From contig JACRPR010000066.1 in assembly GCA_016223105.1 (NCBI GenBank), forward strand, positions 1 to 42,776: a stretch of 42,776 bases of DNA, given 5' to 3'. This document shows, one piece after another, positions 7,870 through 40,495 of the stretch. The position numbers and the translations under genes are program-made. The DNA is from Chloroflexota bacterium. GTDB taxonomy: Bacteria; Chloroflexota; Anaerolineae; UBA4142. Every line of letters begins with the position of its first letter. The stretch's first letter is position 1. The notes below the pieces were generated by a model, which saw nothing but the letters and a program-made list of their open reading frames with translations, searched no databases and was not told the origin of the DNA.

Positions 7870-10620
7870 TTACGCGGTTGTTTTGCGAATGAACCACCCG
7901 CTCAAGCGTCGAGTCCAGAACACGGCTAAAGCCGTTACTACAAACAAAGTTGCACAACTGATGATCGCGCCAAGCGTGAACGACAGTGGGCGATATTCAA
8001 AAACAATCGTGTGTGCGCCGGGCGCGAGCGCAAGCGCGCGAAAAATATAATCGGCGCGCTGAATCGGCGTTTCAATTCCATTTACAAACGCGACCCAGCC
8101 GGGAAACCAGGAATCGGTCAGCACGAGATAGCCGGGCGCGTCGGTTTGCGCTTGGATGACAACGCGATGTGCGGTGGATTCGATCACCGCGACGCGCTCA
8201 TTCGCGGCGGCGTTGCCCGGTAAATTGATCGGCGGCGCATCGTTGAGCAACACCAAGCGCGCGGGATCGAAATCCGCGCGTTGCATGCGCGCAAGCGTTT
8301 GATCGTCCGGCACAAATTCGGCGCGCGGCGCGATGAACGCGCGCGGCAGTGCATCGCGATTTTCCCATTGCGCCGCGACGTTGCTTCGAAACGCGAGCGC
8401 GAGATCGTTCCGTCCCAGCAACGCGGACAGTGCAACGGATTTCCCGGTTTCATCGCGCAGTTCGACGCGCTCGATCATCAATCCAGCCAATGGCAAATTC
8501 GAACGCGCGCCGATTGCGGTGATCACACTCGCGGGAATTTGAAAACGCGCGACGAATTTGCGTCCGGTGAAATCGCGCCCGATCTCACGCAAGTACGCCG
8601 GGAACGCGAGCGACGCGTCGGGCTTGCGATGATTGGCGCGCGCGAGTCCGTCCATCGCCCAGTCCGCGGTTTCGATACCGAGTCGAATCGGCAAAGATAT
8701 TGTTTCGCCATTTTGCAATTGGAGCAACACTACGCCCGCGACAAATTCATCCGGCAAATCGGTGGTTTGATCGGTGTACGAAATAATTTCGATCTGTGTC
8801 GCGCGCGTCGGCGTGATGCCGGGCATTTGGCGCAACAGTTCGAGCGTGAGTCCGCCGTGCGGTTCCATTTCATCGAATTGCGGCGCGTCGCCGGCAACGA
8901 CCGTTTCGAGCGGCAAAATATAATAACGCACGTTCAGCAAATTTCGCATCGTCGGCGTCATTGCGCGCACATATTCATCGTTGCGCGCCAGCGCGAGCGG
9001 CGCGTAAATTTCAATGCCTTCTTTTGCGTACTGGAGCGCGAAATTCGGAATCAGCGCGGCGCGCACCGCGCTCGCCGACAATGCCGGGATGCGATTCGAG
9101 TACGCCCTGCCCGCGCGCATTTGCTGGAGATTTCGCAACGCGCGCGTTACTTCAGTCGGCGGAACGGTTGGATTGAGCGGTTGCAACATCACCGCAAACA
9201 GCGCGAGATCGAAAATCGCGAGCGCGAGAATGATCGTCGCGAACAATCGCCGATTGAGCGCGCGTCGCCACGCGCCGATCAGTGTCGCGCCGATCCCGAG
9301 CATCAGCGCGAACGGCAACCACGTCCACACGTCCGACCACATTTCAAATGGCGCGTTAGCCGCGAGCCAGATTGTTCCCAGCGCGCCAATCATTCCGATC
9401 ACACCAACGAACCACGCGGCGCGCGATCGTTCAGCGCGCAAACGATTTTGCAATTCTTGAAATCCAAACGCGGCGAGCCATGCGAACGCGAAGGTGAACG
9501 GGAAAAGAAAACGCGCCGGGACGCGAAAGCGATTAAAGACCGGCACATTGTAGAGCCACTCGTACAGCGGATTCGATCTGCCGAGCGCGAGCGCGAGCGC
9601 GAGCAATCCGAACGCGAATAAAAACCAGGTTCGCGCATCGCGGCGCAGAATCGGCGCGAGGAGCGAGAGCGCGAACGGCGCGATTCCCAGGTACGCCCAA
9701 AATTCCATCGTATCGCTCGCCGCTGAATCGAAATACCAAAACGGCAAAACAAATTGCGTGAGCGCGCCCGGATCGAGCGAGAGAAAGGTGAAAAAACTAA
9801 AGCCCATTTCCTTGCCGCGAATCGAATAATCCATCAATTCAAACGTGGGCAGTAACTGTACCGCGCCAATGCCCGCGCCGATCACAATTGGCGCGAGGGT
9901 TGTGAGCGTCGCGCGCACGTAGGGCAAATTTATAAATTTACCCCACCGCGTTGACGCGCGCGCGTAGGGCAAATTGGAAAATTTGCCCCACAGCATCGGC
10001 GCGGCGATTCCAAAAAACCCAAACGCAAATAAACTGAGCAAGGTCATCGGCGGAAAACCGGCGAGAAATTGCAAACCGATGATCGCGCCGGCGAACAACA
10101 ACCAGCGCGCATCGAATGGCGCGCGCCAATAGCGGTGTTGGCACAATACCAACCAGGGCAACCAGGACGCGACGGTGAGGTGCGGCGCGTGTTGCAAATG
10201 GGCAATAAAAAAACCGCCGAAGCCGAAACAAAAACCGGCAAGTGTCGCGCTCGCGACATTCAAACCGATGGAACGGGCAAGCGCGTACATTCCAACCGAT
10301 GCCCACGCGACGTGAAATAAAATCGTGAACGCGACCGCGTGATGCGCGGGAAAAATCAAAACGGACACCAGGTTGAGCGGATAGAGCGCGCCGATTTGTC
10401 CTTCGGCGAAAAGCGGAAAGCCGCCTTGCAAGTACGGCGTCCACAACGGCACGCGCCCTTGCGCGAGCGCGCGTTGCAATTCCAGCCGCGTCGGATAAAA
10501 TAGCCGGAAAATATCGTTCGCAAAAAAAACTTGGGCACCCAGCGTTACCGGCAAATAGAAAACAAAATGCCAGAGCGCGAAAAATGCAAGCGCGAAAAAA
10601 TCCGGCAACTTGTTTTTCAT
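7870..10620 (-). CDS. YfhO-like large membrane protein
   Basis: 916-residue protein resembling the YfhO family of bacterial membrane proteins, a GT-C-related group implicated in cell-envelope glycosylation. The N-terminal loop has FFANDIFRLFYPTR and PLWTPYLQGGFPLFAEGQ. About a dozen membrane helices follow to around residue 480, then a long extracytoplasmic part. The C-terminus has the hallmark APGYLVLTDSWFPGWVAFVN and PGAHTIVFEYRP, ending in a last membrane helix. Start ATG 10620 overlaps the preceding stop as ATGA, so it is probably coupled to the gene upstream. Two in-frame copies of a 27-bp palindromic repeat lie inside it (9919-9990). It lacks the beta-sandwich module of its neighbours and has the family's own C-terminal domain instead. 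Confidence 0.85.
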   Translation of the reverse strand: MKNKLPDFFALAFFALWHFVFYLPVTLGAQVFFANDIFRLFYPTRLELQRALAQGRVPLWTPYLQGGFPLFAEGQIGALYPLNLVSVLIFPAHHAVAFTILFHVAWASVGMYALARSIGLNVASATLAGFCFGFGGFFIAHLQHAPHLTVASWLPWLVLCQHRYWRAPFDARWLLFAGAIIGLQFLAGFPPMTLLSLFAFGFFGIAAPMLWGKFSNLPYARASTRWGKFINLPYVRATLTTLAPIVIGAGIGAVQLLPTFELMDYSIRGKEMGFSFFTFLSLDPGALTQFVLPFWYFDSAASDTMEFWAYLGIAPFALSLLAPILRRDARTWFLFAFGLLALALALGRSNPLYEWLYNVPVFNRFRVPARFLFPFTFAFAWLAAFGFQELQNRLRAERSRAAWFVGVIGMIGALGTIWLAANAPFEMWSDVWTWLPFALMLGIGATLIGAWRRALNRRLFATIILALAIFDLALFAVMLQPLNPTVPPTEVTRALRNLQQMRAGRAYSNRIPALSASAVRAALIPNFALQYAKEGIEIYAPLALARNDEYVRAMTPTMRNLLNVRYYILPLETVVAGDAPQFDEMEPHGGLTLELLRQMPGITPTRATQIEIISYTDQTTDLPDEFVAGVVLLQLQNGETISLPIRLGIETADWAMDGLARANHRKPDASLAFPAYLREIGRDFTGRKFVARFQIPASVITAIGARSNLPLAGLMIERVELRDETGKSVALSALLGRNDLALAFRSNVAAQWENRDALPRAFIAPRAEFVPDDQTLARMQRADFDPARLVLLNDAPPINLPGNAAANERVAVIESTAHRVVIQAQTDAPGYLVLTDSWFPGWVAFVNGIETPIQRADYIFRALALAPGAHTIVFEYRPLSFTLGAIISCATLFVVTALAVFWTRRLSGWFIRKTTA
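9919..9990. repeat. two palindromic repeat units inside the YfhO-like gene
   Basis: Units 9919-9945 and 9964-9990, 45 bp apart, each run from GTAGGGCAAATT to an inverted AATTTG/ACCCCA end, so each is itself an imperfect palindrome. They encode the near-duplicate peptides WGKFSNLPYARA and WGKFINLPYVRA in tandem. The 45-bp period equals 15 codons, so the frame is kept. This looks like a dispersed intergenic palindrome that has invaded a coding region. Confidence 0.8.
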
Positions 10621-36918: not shown

Positions 36919-37650
36919 CTACACATTTGGTTCTTTTTGCAAATCGGCGCGCGCAACGAGTGGCGGCGCGCTACCGAGCAAACCGAAACGTTTGCGAAAG
37001 AGAAAAAACAAATTGTAAAATCCGTCGCGCCAGATTCGCAATTTGCTAACGCCGTGCCGTTCTTTGTAATAGACCGGCAGTTCGATGCCGCGAATGATTT
37101 TCTTTTTCGACATCGCTTCGAGTTTGATCTCTTCCGAAAACGCCATTCCGTCGCTCGTGAGCCGCAGGTGTTCGAGAATCGCGCGTTTGAACACCCACAT
37201 GCCCGATTGCGAATCGCGCACGCGAAACCAAAATAAAATGAGGATGAAAAAATTTAGCACGTCGTTGCCGAACACGCGCAACCAATTACTCGGTTTGTCT
37301 TTATGCCCGGTGCGATCACAAGTGATGAAATCGAAATTTTCATCAATCATCACGTCGAGCAGGATCGGAATAAAATTGCGCGGGTACGTGCCGTCGGCGT
37401 CCATCGTTACGATGATGTCGCCGGTCGCATTCCGCAAGCCGGTTTTGTACGCCGCGCCGTATCCTTGTTTCGATTCGCGAATCACGCGCGCGCCAAAACT
37501 GCGCGCGACCTCCGCGGTGCGATCGGTCGAGTTGTTGTCCACCGCGATCACTTCGTCAATGAGCGCGGGCAGATCGCGATAGACCTCGGGCAAGCCGTAT
37601 TCTTCGTTAAAGCACGGCATCACGAGCGAGATGCGATGATTTTTGTACAT
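36919..37650 (-). CDS. family 2 glycosyltransferase, polyprenyl-phosphate-sugar synthase-like
   Basis: 243-residue GT2 with the GT-A fold: ISLVMPCFNEEYGLPEVYRD, IDEVIAVDNNSTDRTAEVA, GYGAAYKTGLRNATGDIIVT, and the metal-binding DADGTYP. The acceptor region DSQSGMWVFKRAILE and the C-terminal GIELPVYYKERHGVSKLRIWRDG match dolichol-phosphate mannose synthase-like enzymes. It would load a sugar onto undecaprenyl phosphate on the cytoplasmic face, giving the lipid-linked donor that GT-C enzymes use. ATG 37650 shares one base with the upstream stop (TAATG), pointing to coupling with the thioredoxin-like gene. A terminator follows. Confidence 0.87.
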   Translation of the reverse strand: MYKNHRISLVMPCFNEEYGLPEVYRDLPALIDEVIAVDNNSTDRTAEVARSFGARVIRESKQGYGAAYKTGLRNATGDIIVTMDADGTYPRNFIPILLDVMIDENFDFITCDRTGHKDKPSNWLRVFGNDVLNFFILILFWFRVRDSQSGMWVFKRAILEHLRLTSDGMAFSEEIKLEAMSKKKIIRGIELPVYYKERHGVSKLRIWRDGFYNLFFLFRKRFGLLGSAPPLVARADLQKEPNV

Positions 37651-38150
37651 TACGGTTTCGCTACCAACTTGAGTTGTTGCTCCAATTCTTCGCCGGTCAC
37701 AAAGCCGCGTTTTTTCCAAATCACTTTGCCGGTCCCATCCAACAGAAACATATCCGGTTGAACCGTGTAACCGAGTTTACGTTTCGCATCCTGGGTCGCG
37801 GGGTTGTCAATATCGAGATAGACAAAATCTATACAACCACCATACTTGGCTTCGAGCCCGTGCACGACGGGTTTGATCGCGTTGCACGTCGTTCACCAAA
37901 ACGCGAAAAACTCGACGAGTTTCGGTTTCGCGGACGCTTCGAGTTTTTTCGGATCGTCGGAGCGAAATTGATCCGGCGGCGCGGCGTTCGTCGTCGTGCA
38001 CGATGCCGCATTCGATGCGGCGGCTTGGGTTGGCGCGGGCGCAACCGATGGTTGAACATTCGATTGAGTTGGCGCGCTAGTCGGCGCGGCAGTCGGCGCG
38101 CACGCGACGAGAGTCATCACCACAAGCACGAACAAAATTTTTGATTTCAT
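37650..38150 (-). CDS. thioredoxin-fold lipoprotein with in-frame UGA at the first active-site Cys (candidate selenoprotein)
   Basis: Read through TGA 37893-37895, this is a 166-residue exported thioredoxin-like protein. ATG 38150 follows GGAAAAATTG. A signal peptide with lipobox LVAC (Cys17) precedes a long Pro/Thr/Ala linker. The domain follows: KPKLVEFFAFW-UGA-TTCNAIKPVV, then CIDFVYLDIDNPATQDAKRK, VQPDMFLLDGTGKVIWKKRG and EELEQQLKL. The UGA (codon 86) stands exactly where WCxxC proteins have their first Cys, and Cys89 is kept. About 80 codons after the UGA are intact and typical, including the proline preceding the strand (VQPD). Either UGA encodes selenocysteine or a TGC-to-TGA mutation has killed the gene. 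Short stems are possible just after the UGA (37864-37869 with 37887-37892, or 37859-37864 with 37883-37888), but they are not a convincing SECIS by eye. Confidence 0.75.
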
Positions 38151-38164
38151 CAATTTTTCCTTTT

Positions 38165-38192
38165 CACGCTTTACGTTTCACGTCTTACGTTT
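38165..38192. repeat. 14-bp tandem repeat at the radical SAM 3' end
   Basis: CACGCTTTACGTTT and CACGTCTTACGTTT in tandem, a doubled form of the ACGTAAA heptamer family. It overlaps the final codons and the TAA (38185-38187) of the radical SAM gene, so the repeat supplies its stop codon. Confidence 0.8.
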
Positions 38193-39384
38193 CAACGCGA
38201 TAACTTTCGACCGCGCGCGGCGCAGAGTTCATCACTTCAGGCGAAAGACCGTGACGCAATTGCGCCCATTTCAAACTCGCCCACTCTTTGAGAATGACCG
38301 GGTACATCAACGGGTTGAACAAAATGTTGACGGTCATAAAACATTCGTAGGTGCAATAGCATTTCGTTTTCGAAATCCACTCGCGCACGTCGTCGGCTTT
38401 TTGCGATTCCCAGATTTTTTTGAAATTGTAATCGAAATCGCGCACGTTGCCGAGAATTTTTTCTTCGAGCAATTCACACGCCAGCACGTCGCCGTTCGCG
38501 TACATCGCGCCGCCGAGCGAACCGGCATAACACGGAATCACAAAGCGGCGTTCCTTCACCATCTTGGTAATCATCTTGGGGCGAATGATGCGCTTGGCGT
38601 TGATGAAATCGCCGAAGGGCAATTTGTAATAGCCGGACAATTCGCGCGATTTGTTATCCGCTTCGAGCCGATAGTGAAAGTTCATATAGTTGTCAATGTC
38701 GAATTGATTCGCCTTCGGATCAATCGGCGGCGTGAATTTCGCCGCGGGGTCTTTCGGTCCACCGCGCAGAAGCAGAGTGAACACGGTGTTGACGCCGACG
38801 TACGTGCGGAGGTAATCGTAAATTTCATCGAGCCGATCGTGATTGTACGCGCTGACCGCGATTTGAATGCACGCGGAAAAACTGGGATAGTGTTTTTCGA
38901 GCACGCGCAATTCGCGATAGGTACGAATCGCGCGGTCGAACAAACCTTTAAAGCCGCGAAACTTGTCGTGATCTTCTTCCACGCCGTCAATCGAAATGTC
39001 AATGTGCAAATCCATCTCGGGGCACGCGTCGAGCATTTCGCGCGCGCCGTCCACAACGCGACTCGTGAGCGAGCCGTTCGTCGGGATGCCGACGTTCGGC
39101 GCGTGATTGTTCTTGTGAAAAATCTTGACGATTTCCGGTAAATCTTTTCGCAAGAACGGTTCGCCGCCGGTCGGCGTGAAGAAAATCATATCGTCCATCG
39201 TGCGACTAACTTTTTCGATTTCGTCAATCGTCAGTTCGCCGGTGTGCCGTTCGTGCGAACCGAGCAAACAGTGCCCACAGCGCGCGTTGCAATTTTTCGT
39301 GATGAAGAGGACAAAGTATAACGGCGACGCGCCTTTTTTGTACAAGATGCGCGGCGCGAATTTCATATAGTTCATCAGAGACAT
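38185..39384 (-). CDS. radical SAM protein with SPASM-like C-terminal cysteines
   Basis: 399-residue radical SAM enzyme. The cluster motif CNARCGHC places Cys at 32, 36 and 39, with FFTPTGGEPFLRKDL as the GGE (SAM-binding) motif and DLHIDISIDGVEEDHDKFRG downstream. The C-terminus has further Cys (IPCYAGSLGGAMYANGDVLACE, then KTKCYCTYECF), which would bind auxiliary iron-sulfur clusters as in SPASM enzymes. The last 40 residues are hydrophobic or basic and may contact the membrane. Substrate unknown: it could be a peptide, as for many SPASM proteins, but no precursor peptide gene was found beside it. It lies 34 nt upstream of the thioredoxin-like gene in the same orientation and may depend on its reducing power. 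Confidence 0.9.
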   Translation of the reverse strand: MSLMNYMKFAPRILYKKGASPLYFVLFITKNCNARCGHCLLGSHERHTGELTIDEIEKVSRTMDDMIFFTPTGGEPFLRKDLPEIVKIFHKNNHAPNVGIPTNGSLTSRVVDGAREMLDACPEMDLHIDISIDGVEEDHDKFRGFKGLFDRAIRTYRELRVLEKHYPSFSACIQIAVSAYNHDRLDEIYDYLRTYVGVNTVFTLLLRGGPKDPAAKFTPPIDPKANQFDIDNYMNFHYRLEADNKSRELSGYYKLPFGDFINAKRIIRPKMITKMVKERRFVIPCYAGSLGGAMYANGDVLACELLEEKILGNVRDFDYNFKKIWESQKADDVREWISKTKCYCTYECFMTVNILFNPLMYPVILKEWASLKWAQLRHGLSPEVMNSAPRAVESYRVET

Positions 39385-39407: not shown

Positions 39408-39770
39408 CTACGCCGCGACCTGGTCCGGCAAAGGCGGAACGTGCGGCGACAGAGACAATCCAACACTCAAGAAATCATTGACGGGTGGCGTAGTCAGCAC
39501 TGCCAAAACCGCTTGCCAGAGATCTTCCGGCAGATTTCGCAGATTTGCCAATGGCACACTGAGCGGCGTGTTGCGGTAATGCGCCATCATTCGCGCGAAA
39601 CTAATAAAAGTCAATCCGACCGCGCGCGGCGGCGTGCCGGTCGTTTTGCCGGTATCAAGGCGTAACAAGATATTGTCAGCCAACTCGACGCCGGTTACAT
39701 GCTCGCTTTTACCAAACGAGACATAGAGCACATCCGCCTCTTCGTCATAGTCGGTTTTTATTTCGTTCAT
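39408..39770 (-). CDS. DUF2283 protein, likely antitoxin partner
   Basis: 120-residue protein. The first 55 residues match DUF2283: YDEEADVLYVSFGKSE, then ELADNILLRLD and RAVGLTFISFARM. A C-terminal extension (NLRNLPEDLWQAVLAVL, SVGLSLSPHVPPLP) is unlike the compact family members. DUF2283 genes are often beside small toxin-like genes; here the PBECR-like gene ends 3 nt upstream, so the two are probably translated together. Role as antitoxin is inferred. Confidence 0.72.
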   Translation of the reverse strand: MNEIKTDYDEEADVLYVSFGKSEHVTGVELADNILLRLDTGKTTGTPPRAVGLTFISFARMMAHYRNTPLSVPLANLRNLPEDLWQAVLAVLTTPPVNDFLSVGLSLSPHVPPLPDQVAA

Positions 39771-39773
39771 ACT

Positions 39774-40106
39774 CTACTCCTCGAAAGATTGGCAATACGC
39801 GGTCGTCACAAATTTTTCTTCGCGCATCGAGCCATCCGGATCGGTGTGCCAACGAAAACGCACACAAACAACCAAATGCGTATTATCATCCGGCAAGTCC
39901 GCAAAGAATCGGTAATATCGGTAGCCGTTGGGATCGTACGGGTCTTGACGACGACGCCCCAAGCGAATCGTTTCCGCGACCTCGTCAAAAAATGGCGCAA
40001 CTTCGGGATGATTGTCTGGATCAATAATGTGCGCCCACCGTTCACGCGTCAAATAGATTTCATTGCCAAAACGATCGCGCTGAGTCCAGAGTTTGCCGCC
40101 GGGCAT
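39774..40106 (-). CDS. PBECR-like (barnase/EndoU/RelE-related) small nuclease-like protein, possible toxin
   Basis: 110-residue protein with the pattern DRFGNEIYLTRERWAHIIDP, FFDEVAETIRLGRRRQDPYD, YRYYRFFADLPDDNTHLVVC and MREEKFVTTAYCQSF. The 'LTxERWxHI...Yy+f...VVVxF...FvxTAY' layout belongs to a small family I associate with PBECR-type RNase-fold domains. The conserved Arg-Trp-x-His and the final Thr-Ala-Tyr are present. It sits immediately upstream of DUF2283 on the same strand, forming a two-gene unit. Toxicity is inferred, not shown. Confidence 0.55.
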   Translation of the reverse strand: MPGGKLWTQRDRFGNEIYLTRERWAHIIDPDNHPEVAPFFDEVAETIRLGRRRQDPYDPNGYRYYRFFADLPDDNTHLVVCVRFRWHTDPDGSMREEKFVTTAYCQSFEE

Positions 40107-40142
40107 ATTGATTGTCTCCGAATAAAATCGTTCTGGAAATTG

Positions 40143-40495
40143 TTATGCTTTTGCTCTACCGCGCACCTGGTATAATCGAATCAACTCGCGCACAACCGGC
40201 AATAGTTCACGCGGCACTTGAACCGTCGTTCGTTCTTTGCGCGCCATTTCATCTTCTGCAACGGCTTGGTCCTCGGTTTGCGTTTCATAATGGCGCAACA
40301 CTTTACGCACGCGTTTTTCGTTCCATCCTTTTGGAAGATGATTCGTTTCCGCCCAGAGTTCCATTGCAACTTTGATTTCAGCTAATGCGGCTTCTTCCGT
40401 TTCGCCAAACGCGGAACATCCCGGTAATTCAGAAACAATCGCGACGTACCCCGCATCTTTTTCGCTGTAGAAATTTGGATCGCGTATTTGGACAT
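40143..40495 (-). pseudogene. hicB: HicB-like antitoxin gene with a 5' frameshift
   Basis: From ATG 40495 the frame reads MSKYAIQI. One base must then be gained near the AAA/TTT run at 40471-40476 to continue as FYSEKDAGYVAIVSELPGCS, AFGETEEAALAEIKVAMELW. This is a standard HicB fold, and a C-terminal helical part (KRVRKVLRHYETQTEDQAVA, then VPRELLPVVRELIRLY) follows. Read without correction, only a 73-residue C-terminal piece starting at an internal ATG is open. No HicA toxin gene lies on either side. It is either decaying or affected by a homopolymer error. Its start is 2 nt after the upstream GT2 stop. Confidence 0.7.

Follow-up and report, generated by a model that had tools for sequence, protein, structure and literature searches.

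Known UxxC Selenoproteins and the Present Locus

Bacterial selenoproteins in which selenocysteine (Sec) occupies the first position of a UxxC active site are already known. A thioredoxin selenoprotein (PF00085, UxxC) has been catalogued as experimentally verified, and the same catalogue holds a thiol:disulfide interchange protein (PF13098, UxxC) and a Prx-like thiol:disulfide oxidoreductase with UxxU (PMC13188914). The accompanying bSECIS model is defined by a loop of 3-9 nt, a stem of 4-16 bp, a G in the first two loop positions, a spacing of 16-37 nt and an MFE <= -7.5 kcal/mol (PMC13188914). Only three selenoproteins of Chloroflexi were counted in a 2006 survey, and in the literature on Chloroflexota selenoproteins we found no description of a UxxC lipoprotein family.

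Here we describe a gene on the minus strand of a 42,776-nt contig of a Chloroflexota bacterium (JACRPR010000066.1, assembly GCA_016223105.1; hereafter the window, meaning this whole stretch). Judged by its sequence, it is very probably an intact selenoprotein gene, with Sec in the UxxC active site of a thioredoxin-like lipoprotein. The original prediction regarded an exported UxxC protein as unusual, which is only partly right, since UxxC selenoproteins of the thioredoxin-like and thiol:disulfide interchange kinds are already catalogued (PMC13188914); the exported-lipoprotein subfamily, with its own motif and SECIS, we found in none of the catalogues or curated families.

The relation to each of the described systems can be stated through profile scores and predicted structure. 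The domain matches Pfam Thioredoxin (PF00085) with 42.2 bits, above the gathering score of 23.5, and the score for every matched NCBI family lies below its cut-off. For residues 61-167, AlphaFold2 predicts a thioredoxin fold with confidence (pLDDT ~90 over the domain), and the best PDB matches in Foldseek are thioredoxins. With the thioredoxin selenoprotein the lipoprotein shares this fold, Sec in the first place of the motif, the retained second Cys and a bacterial SECIS just after the UGA. Unlike it, the present protein appears to be exported, has WU[TGVPA][TA]C instead of WCGPC, carries a VHGLE motif that overlaps the hairpin, and remains under the cut-off of the canonical TrxA profile TIGR01068 (42.8 vs 96.8 bits). 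The PF13098 selenoprotein is likewise thioredoxin-like, with UxxC, and its name suggests that it exchanges thiols and disulfides outside the cytoplasm; in profile score the lipoprotein stays below that family, with 22.1 bits against a gathering score of 27. The Cys-based reductases CcmG/DsbE and ResA have in common with it a membrane-tethered thioredoxin fold and a WCPTC-like motif (WUPTC in the homologue L015), and further likeness is seen in a weak DsbE match (TIGR00385, 33.7 bits vs a cut-off of 123.15) and in Foldseek matches to a Bacillus thiol-disulfide oxidoreductase. They differ in that here Sec stands for Cys, a lipid anchor is predicted, the gene neighborhood is another one and all matches fall under the family cut-offs. 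The Prx-like UxxU protein shows that Sec can fill both places of the active site, as it apparently does in the relative L061/L113 (WUPTU), but it belongs to another Pfam family (PF00578).

The Gene, Its Product and Its Neighborhood

The gene (37650..38150, minus strand) was delimited by read-through translation, Pfam, homologues and AlphaFold2. Its product of 166 aa starts at the ATG 38150-38148, just 5′ of which stands AGGA, and ends at the TAA stop 37652-37650; the program's list of open reading frames starts the same gene at a TTG, one codon before the ATG. With the TGA read as open, complement(37650..38153) gives LMKSKILFVLVVMTLVACAP...KPKLVEFFAFW-U-TTCNAIKPVVHGLEAKYGGCIDFVYLDIDN...KLVAKP*. 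The read-through translation confirmed the claim that a TGA (37893..37895) stands at the first Cys of a WCxxC motif, and placed it on the minus strand, which had not been given before. This putative Sec codon opens the UxxC motif (WUTTC) and is the same codon in 44/44 aligned TGA homologues; the second Cys is kept and the frame runs on for 80 codons from TGA 37895-37893 to the TAA, much as had been proposed.

From the N-terminus, the protein consists of a signal with lipobox, a Pro/Ala/Thr-rich linker and the thioredoxin domain with W-U-T-T-C. The lipoprotein signal peptide and lipobox (38100..38150, minus strand; LVAC followed by A) were recognized as a pattern by eye, as MKSKILFVLVVMTLVAC followed by A, and the lipobox Cys is invariant among seven full-length homologues. 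Two further residues, Cys 52 and Cys 107 in the numbering of the first alignment row, are invariant in seven close homologues; they are apparently lost together in farther ones, which suggests a structural disulfide.

The lipoprotein gene lies in a tightly spaced, unidirectional series. Directly upstream, after a 34-nt gap, is a gene for a radical SAM/SPASM protein (38185..39384, minus strand; Pfam Radical_SAM 57 bits, SPASM 24 bits) whose stop is at 38185. Directly downstream follows a glycosyltransferase family 2 gene resembling polyprenyl-phosphate sugar synthases (36919..37641, minus strand; Pfam Glycos_transf_2 106.6 bits), which starts at ~37641, and the same conserved cluster includes a large membrane protein (PTPS_related, PF10131; 33832..36762, minus strand). 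Relatives of the same family keep the order radical SAM, lipoprotein, glycosyltransferase, large membrane proteins. A second glycosyltransferase gene lies upstream of the radical SAM gene, where relatives also have a DUF4058 gene; in the window the space between the two (39408-40364, minus strand) is occupied by a DUF2283 gene and two small genes. The radical SAM gene is still nearby in the sister family f2 (L112, L113), and it was not found nearby in the more distant homologues examined. The composition of the cluster hints at a role in envelope or glycan assembly.

Conservation of the TGA and Selection on the Downstream Codons

Close homologues were compared over 14 genomes of the same family. 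With the own genome set aside, the five best matches, from four other genera and with 55-70% identity, have exactly one TGA each, as does a paralogue of 52% identity in the own genome. In all six, whose sequences were inspected, the TGA is the first position of UxxC; the nearest homologues thus carry UGA, and not the Cys that a chance mutation in this one allele would imply. After the TGA, dN is 0.117 and dS 0.774 relative to the nearest orthologue, values that indicate purifying selection on the codons 3′ of the TGA.

At a larger scale, 133 of the 396 genomes of the class hold a homologue at E <= 1e-10, and most of these have one TGA, the matches beyond the inspected ones being scored for the presence of TGA alone, whatever its position. 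The 53 distinct homologues inspected comprise 45 Sec forms, with the in-frame TGA at the active site, and 8 Cys forms, so a redox position is marked by UGA in the orthologues and by Cys in some other homologues (e.g., that of genome G290). A scan of named genomes gave orthologues in four, all of them Chloroflexota metagenome assemblies. On these sequence matches, the family is widespread in its class of Chloroflexota.

Two variants deserve mention on their own. The relative L061/L113 (G018:C213:13299-13643) has two in-frame TGAs, and both of its active-site positions are apparently Sec. In G184:C408 and G341:C153, TGA-bearing thioredoxin domains lie in open frames of ~550-560 aa and are possibly fused to a larger protein.

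A Covarying Hairpin Downstream of the UGA

When the homologues were scanned for the bSECIS shape as published, a hairpin was detected, with the loop mostly 26-27 nt after the UGA, and a check of the region following the UGA thus yielded a bacterial SECIS-like structure. In the family alignment it appears as a seven-pair helix (37855..37873, minus strand), defined by hairpin scan, covariation and RNAalifold. The gene of the window has the core CCCGU-CGUGC-ACGGG (37871-37857), whose loop begins 27 nt after the UGA. Against the model, it shows a 5-nt loop (CGUGC), a spacing of 26 and, for the extended hairpin, -7.5 kcal/mol, just at the limit; the bare core in L056 reaches -5.6 kcal/mol. The support for a SECIS comes mainly from covariation.

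In a gap-free alignment of 44 TGA sequences, the helix forms in 90.3% of cells, and compensatory changes on both sides occur in 6/7 pairs, with 34 doubly changed cells vs 6.7 in shuffles. Pairing collapses when the helix is shifted along the alignment, RNAalifold alone recovers 6/7 pairs of the same helix, and the loop residues G31 and T32 are invariant over the 44 sequences. Synonymous codons follow the helix as well: CAC serves for His alongside GTC, and CAT alongside ATC or ATG, while for Gly within the helix GGG or GGA is nearly always used, GGC being common a few codons further on. A strict test, requiring the five inner pairs and G[GT] in the loop, was passed by 42/44 TGA homologues vs 7 of 7,946 codon positions in the other genes of the window. 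The 17 distinct Cys homologues retain at best 6/7 pairs, the number in L070, and the rest have fewer.

As a free strand, the window's own 56 nt from the UGA favor another fold, and the SECIS hairpin is the favored one only when the first 15-18 nt, the part that the ribosome would cover, are omitted. An Rfam search of the UGA region gave no match, and a covariance model of this region run over the own genome detected only three thioredoxin-like genes, the weaker matches inspected having no protein-like frame across the TGA.

Selenocysteine Machinery and Other In-Frame TGA Genes

The genome to which the window belongs, as one of 250 contigs, is a 5.5-Mb draft, 93% complete. As the original prediction correctly stated, no selA, selB, selC or selD lies within the window; all four were found on other contigs, each above its curated cut-off: SelA with 585 bits, SelB with 342, SelD with 363, and a tRNA-Sec with 72 bits (cut-off 47) whose anticodon is TCA by ARAGORN. 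SelD itself has an in-frame TGA at its known Sec position, in the motif CAGUASK. The possibility that the genome has no Sec machinery is thereby set aside.

The presence of selA can be related to the form of the active site by taking the best homologue of each genome, with lists drawn by hand from two tables. selA occurs in 97 of 101 TGA-form genomes vs 8 of 20 Cys-only genomes (Fisher p = 1.5e-8, which is not a strict probability because the genomes are related), and three of the four TGA genomes without it are only 67-78% complete. By the tree, which has weak support in places, Sec and Cys have replaced one another at least four times. In G290 (L070/L120) the form is Cys, no selA was detected and the hairpin persists with one broken pair; on these sequence traits, it is apparently a recent Sec-to-Cys change. 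In genus g134, with G244 and G383 among its genomes, selA is matched in two separate pieces (best E ~1e-95), single-contig genomes included, which has the look of a split or interrupted gene.

The own genome encodes two further thioredoxin-like proteins with TGA at the UxxC position, L024 (G000:C48:31881-32270) and L037 (G000:C100:1705-1980), the latter distant and apparently membrane-anchored. It also encodes a VKOR thiol oxidase (L127:1459-1911; G000:C103, about 9740-10190; PF07884, 78 bits) with an in-frame TGA in place of the codon for the first Cys of the active site (VIYSV-U-GWC) and a stable hairpin 3′ of it, the z-score of which, -1.66, is unexceptional by itself. VKOR is absent from the published selenoprotein catalogue (PMC13188914), our literature search found no paper on a Sec-VKOR, and no match came from viral contigs or from the 1.73 Mb of the closest relative that were searched, about 28% of its genome. 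As a lead from one genome, a Sec-containing VKOR is probably real.

Proposed Function and Alternative Readings

On these elements a mechanism can be proposed. With the hairpin 26 nt past the UGA as its guide, SelB would deliver Sec-tRNA-Sec to the ribosome, and we infer that Sec is incorporated at the UGA, as the opening residue of UxxC. The product, once exported, would presumably sit lipid-anchored on the outside of the cytoplasmic membrane, where the thioredoxin fold would trade electrons through the Sec and Cys of UxxC. As to the direction of electron flow, the protein would act mainly as a reductase, in the manner of CcmG/ResA, with exported disulfides as putative substrates and a CcdA/DsbD-type membrane protein as the putative partner that recharges it. 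Two CcdA/DsbD-type proteins in the genome could supply electrons, and its one VKOR could withdraw them. The xx dipeptides of the family (TT, GT, VT, PT) resemble the CPTC of CcmG/DsbE, and this closeness makes us lean toward a reductase, a role that we hold as slightly better than an even bet.

VKOR enzymes oxidize thioredoxin-fold partners. For this reason, the occurrence of a VKOR with UGWC in the same genome counts for a selenoprotein whose main work would be to oxidize or isomerize exported proteins, with VKOR recharging it. This possibility, which we regard as less likely, has to contend with the electron carriers of the CcdA/DsbD type that are also present, with the reductase-like dipeptide of the active site and with the fact that the VKOR gene does not adjoin that of the selenoprotein.

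Whichever way electrons flow, the decoding of UGA as Sec is generally inefficient, and the UGA might both stop translation and be read through, yielding in addition a functional truncated lipoprotein of 85 aa. In favor of such a dual product, the N-terminal part keeps its conserved Cys and an FRSDDP stretch in close homologues. But the truncated form would end within the thioredoxin fold, at the active site, and there is no sign of a separate function, for which reasons it seems unlikely.

TGC and TGA differ by a single base and the window comes from a draft assembly of 250 contigs, so a nonsense mutation, or an error of sequencing or assembly, could in principle have produced the TGA in a gene that is dead or truly Cys-coding; the mutation was the alternative named in the original prediction. 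It is contradicted by a TGA common to all close homologues of other genera and present at the active site in 45 of the 53 inspected homologues, by the purifying selection on the 80 codons that follow, and by the covarying hairpin. A base-call error is untenable in view of five genera whose genomes, assembled separately, share this TGA; conservation of the TGA across genera rules out the explanation, to which we attach next to no probability. A genome-wide reassignment of TGA to Trp, Gly or Cys, which the in-frame TGAs of selD, VKOR and the two other thioredoxin-like genes might suggest, is extremely improbable and is refuted by TGA being the apparent stop of 8 of the window's 17 genes and by the restriction of the in-frame TGAs found to redox Cys/Sec positions, for which tRNA-Sec with SelA and SelB accounts.

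Concluding Remarks

The reading of the locus as an intact selenoprotein gene, supported by the Sec machinery, the conserved TGA, the covarying hairpin and purifying selection, has consequences for the annotation of these genomes. The TGA arrangement is conserved over many Chloroflexota and the gene likely missed by automatic annotation: callers that take TGA only as a stop will cut or drop it, and a family present through a good part of a large environmental phylum would thus be hidden. Furthermore, with Sec where selA is kept and Cys where it is often lost, the family would offer a clean system to ask when selenium is worth its cost.

It is conceivable, though doubtful, that the extracytoplasmic thiol-redox system of this lineage is selenium-based as a whole, with several anchored or membrane-bound Sec thioredoxin-like proteins and a Sec VKOR (UGWC). 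If the VKOR were confirmed, a quinone-linked membrane enzyme and a thioredoxin-like partner would both make use of Sec. For Chloroflexota, the lipoprotein would bring selenium into extracytoplasmic disulfide chemistry, and its study has pointed to a possible Sec-containing VKOR.
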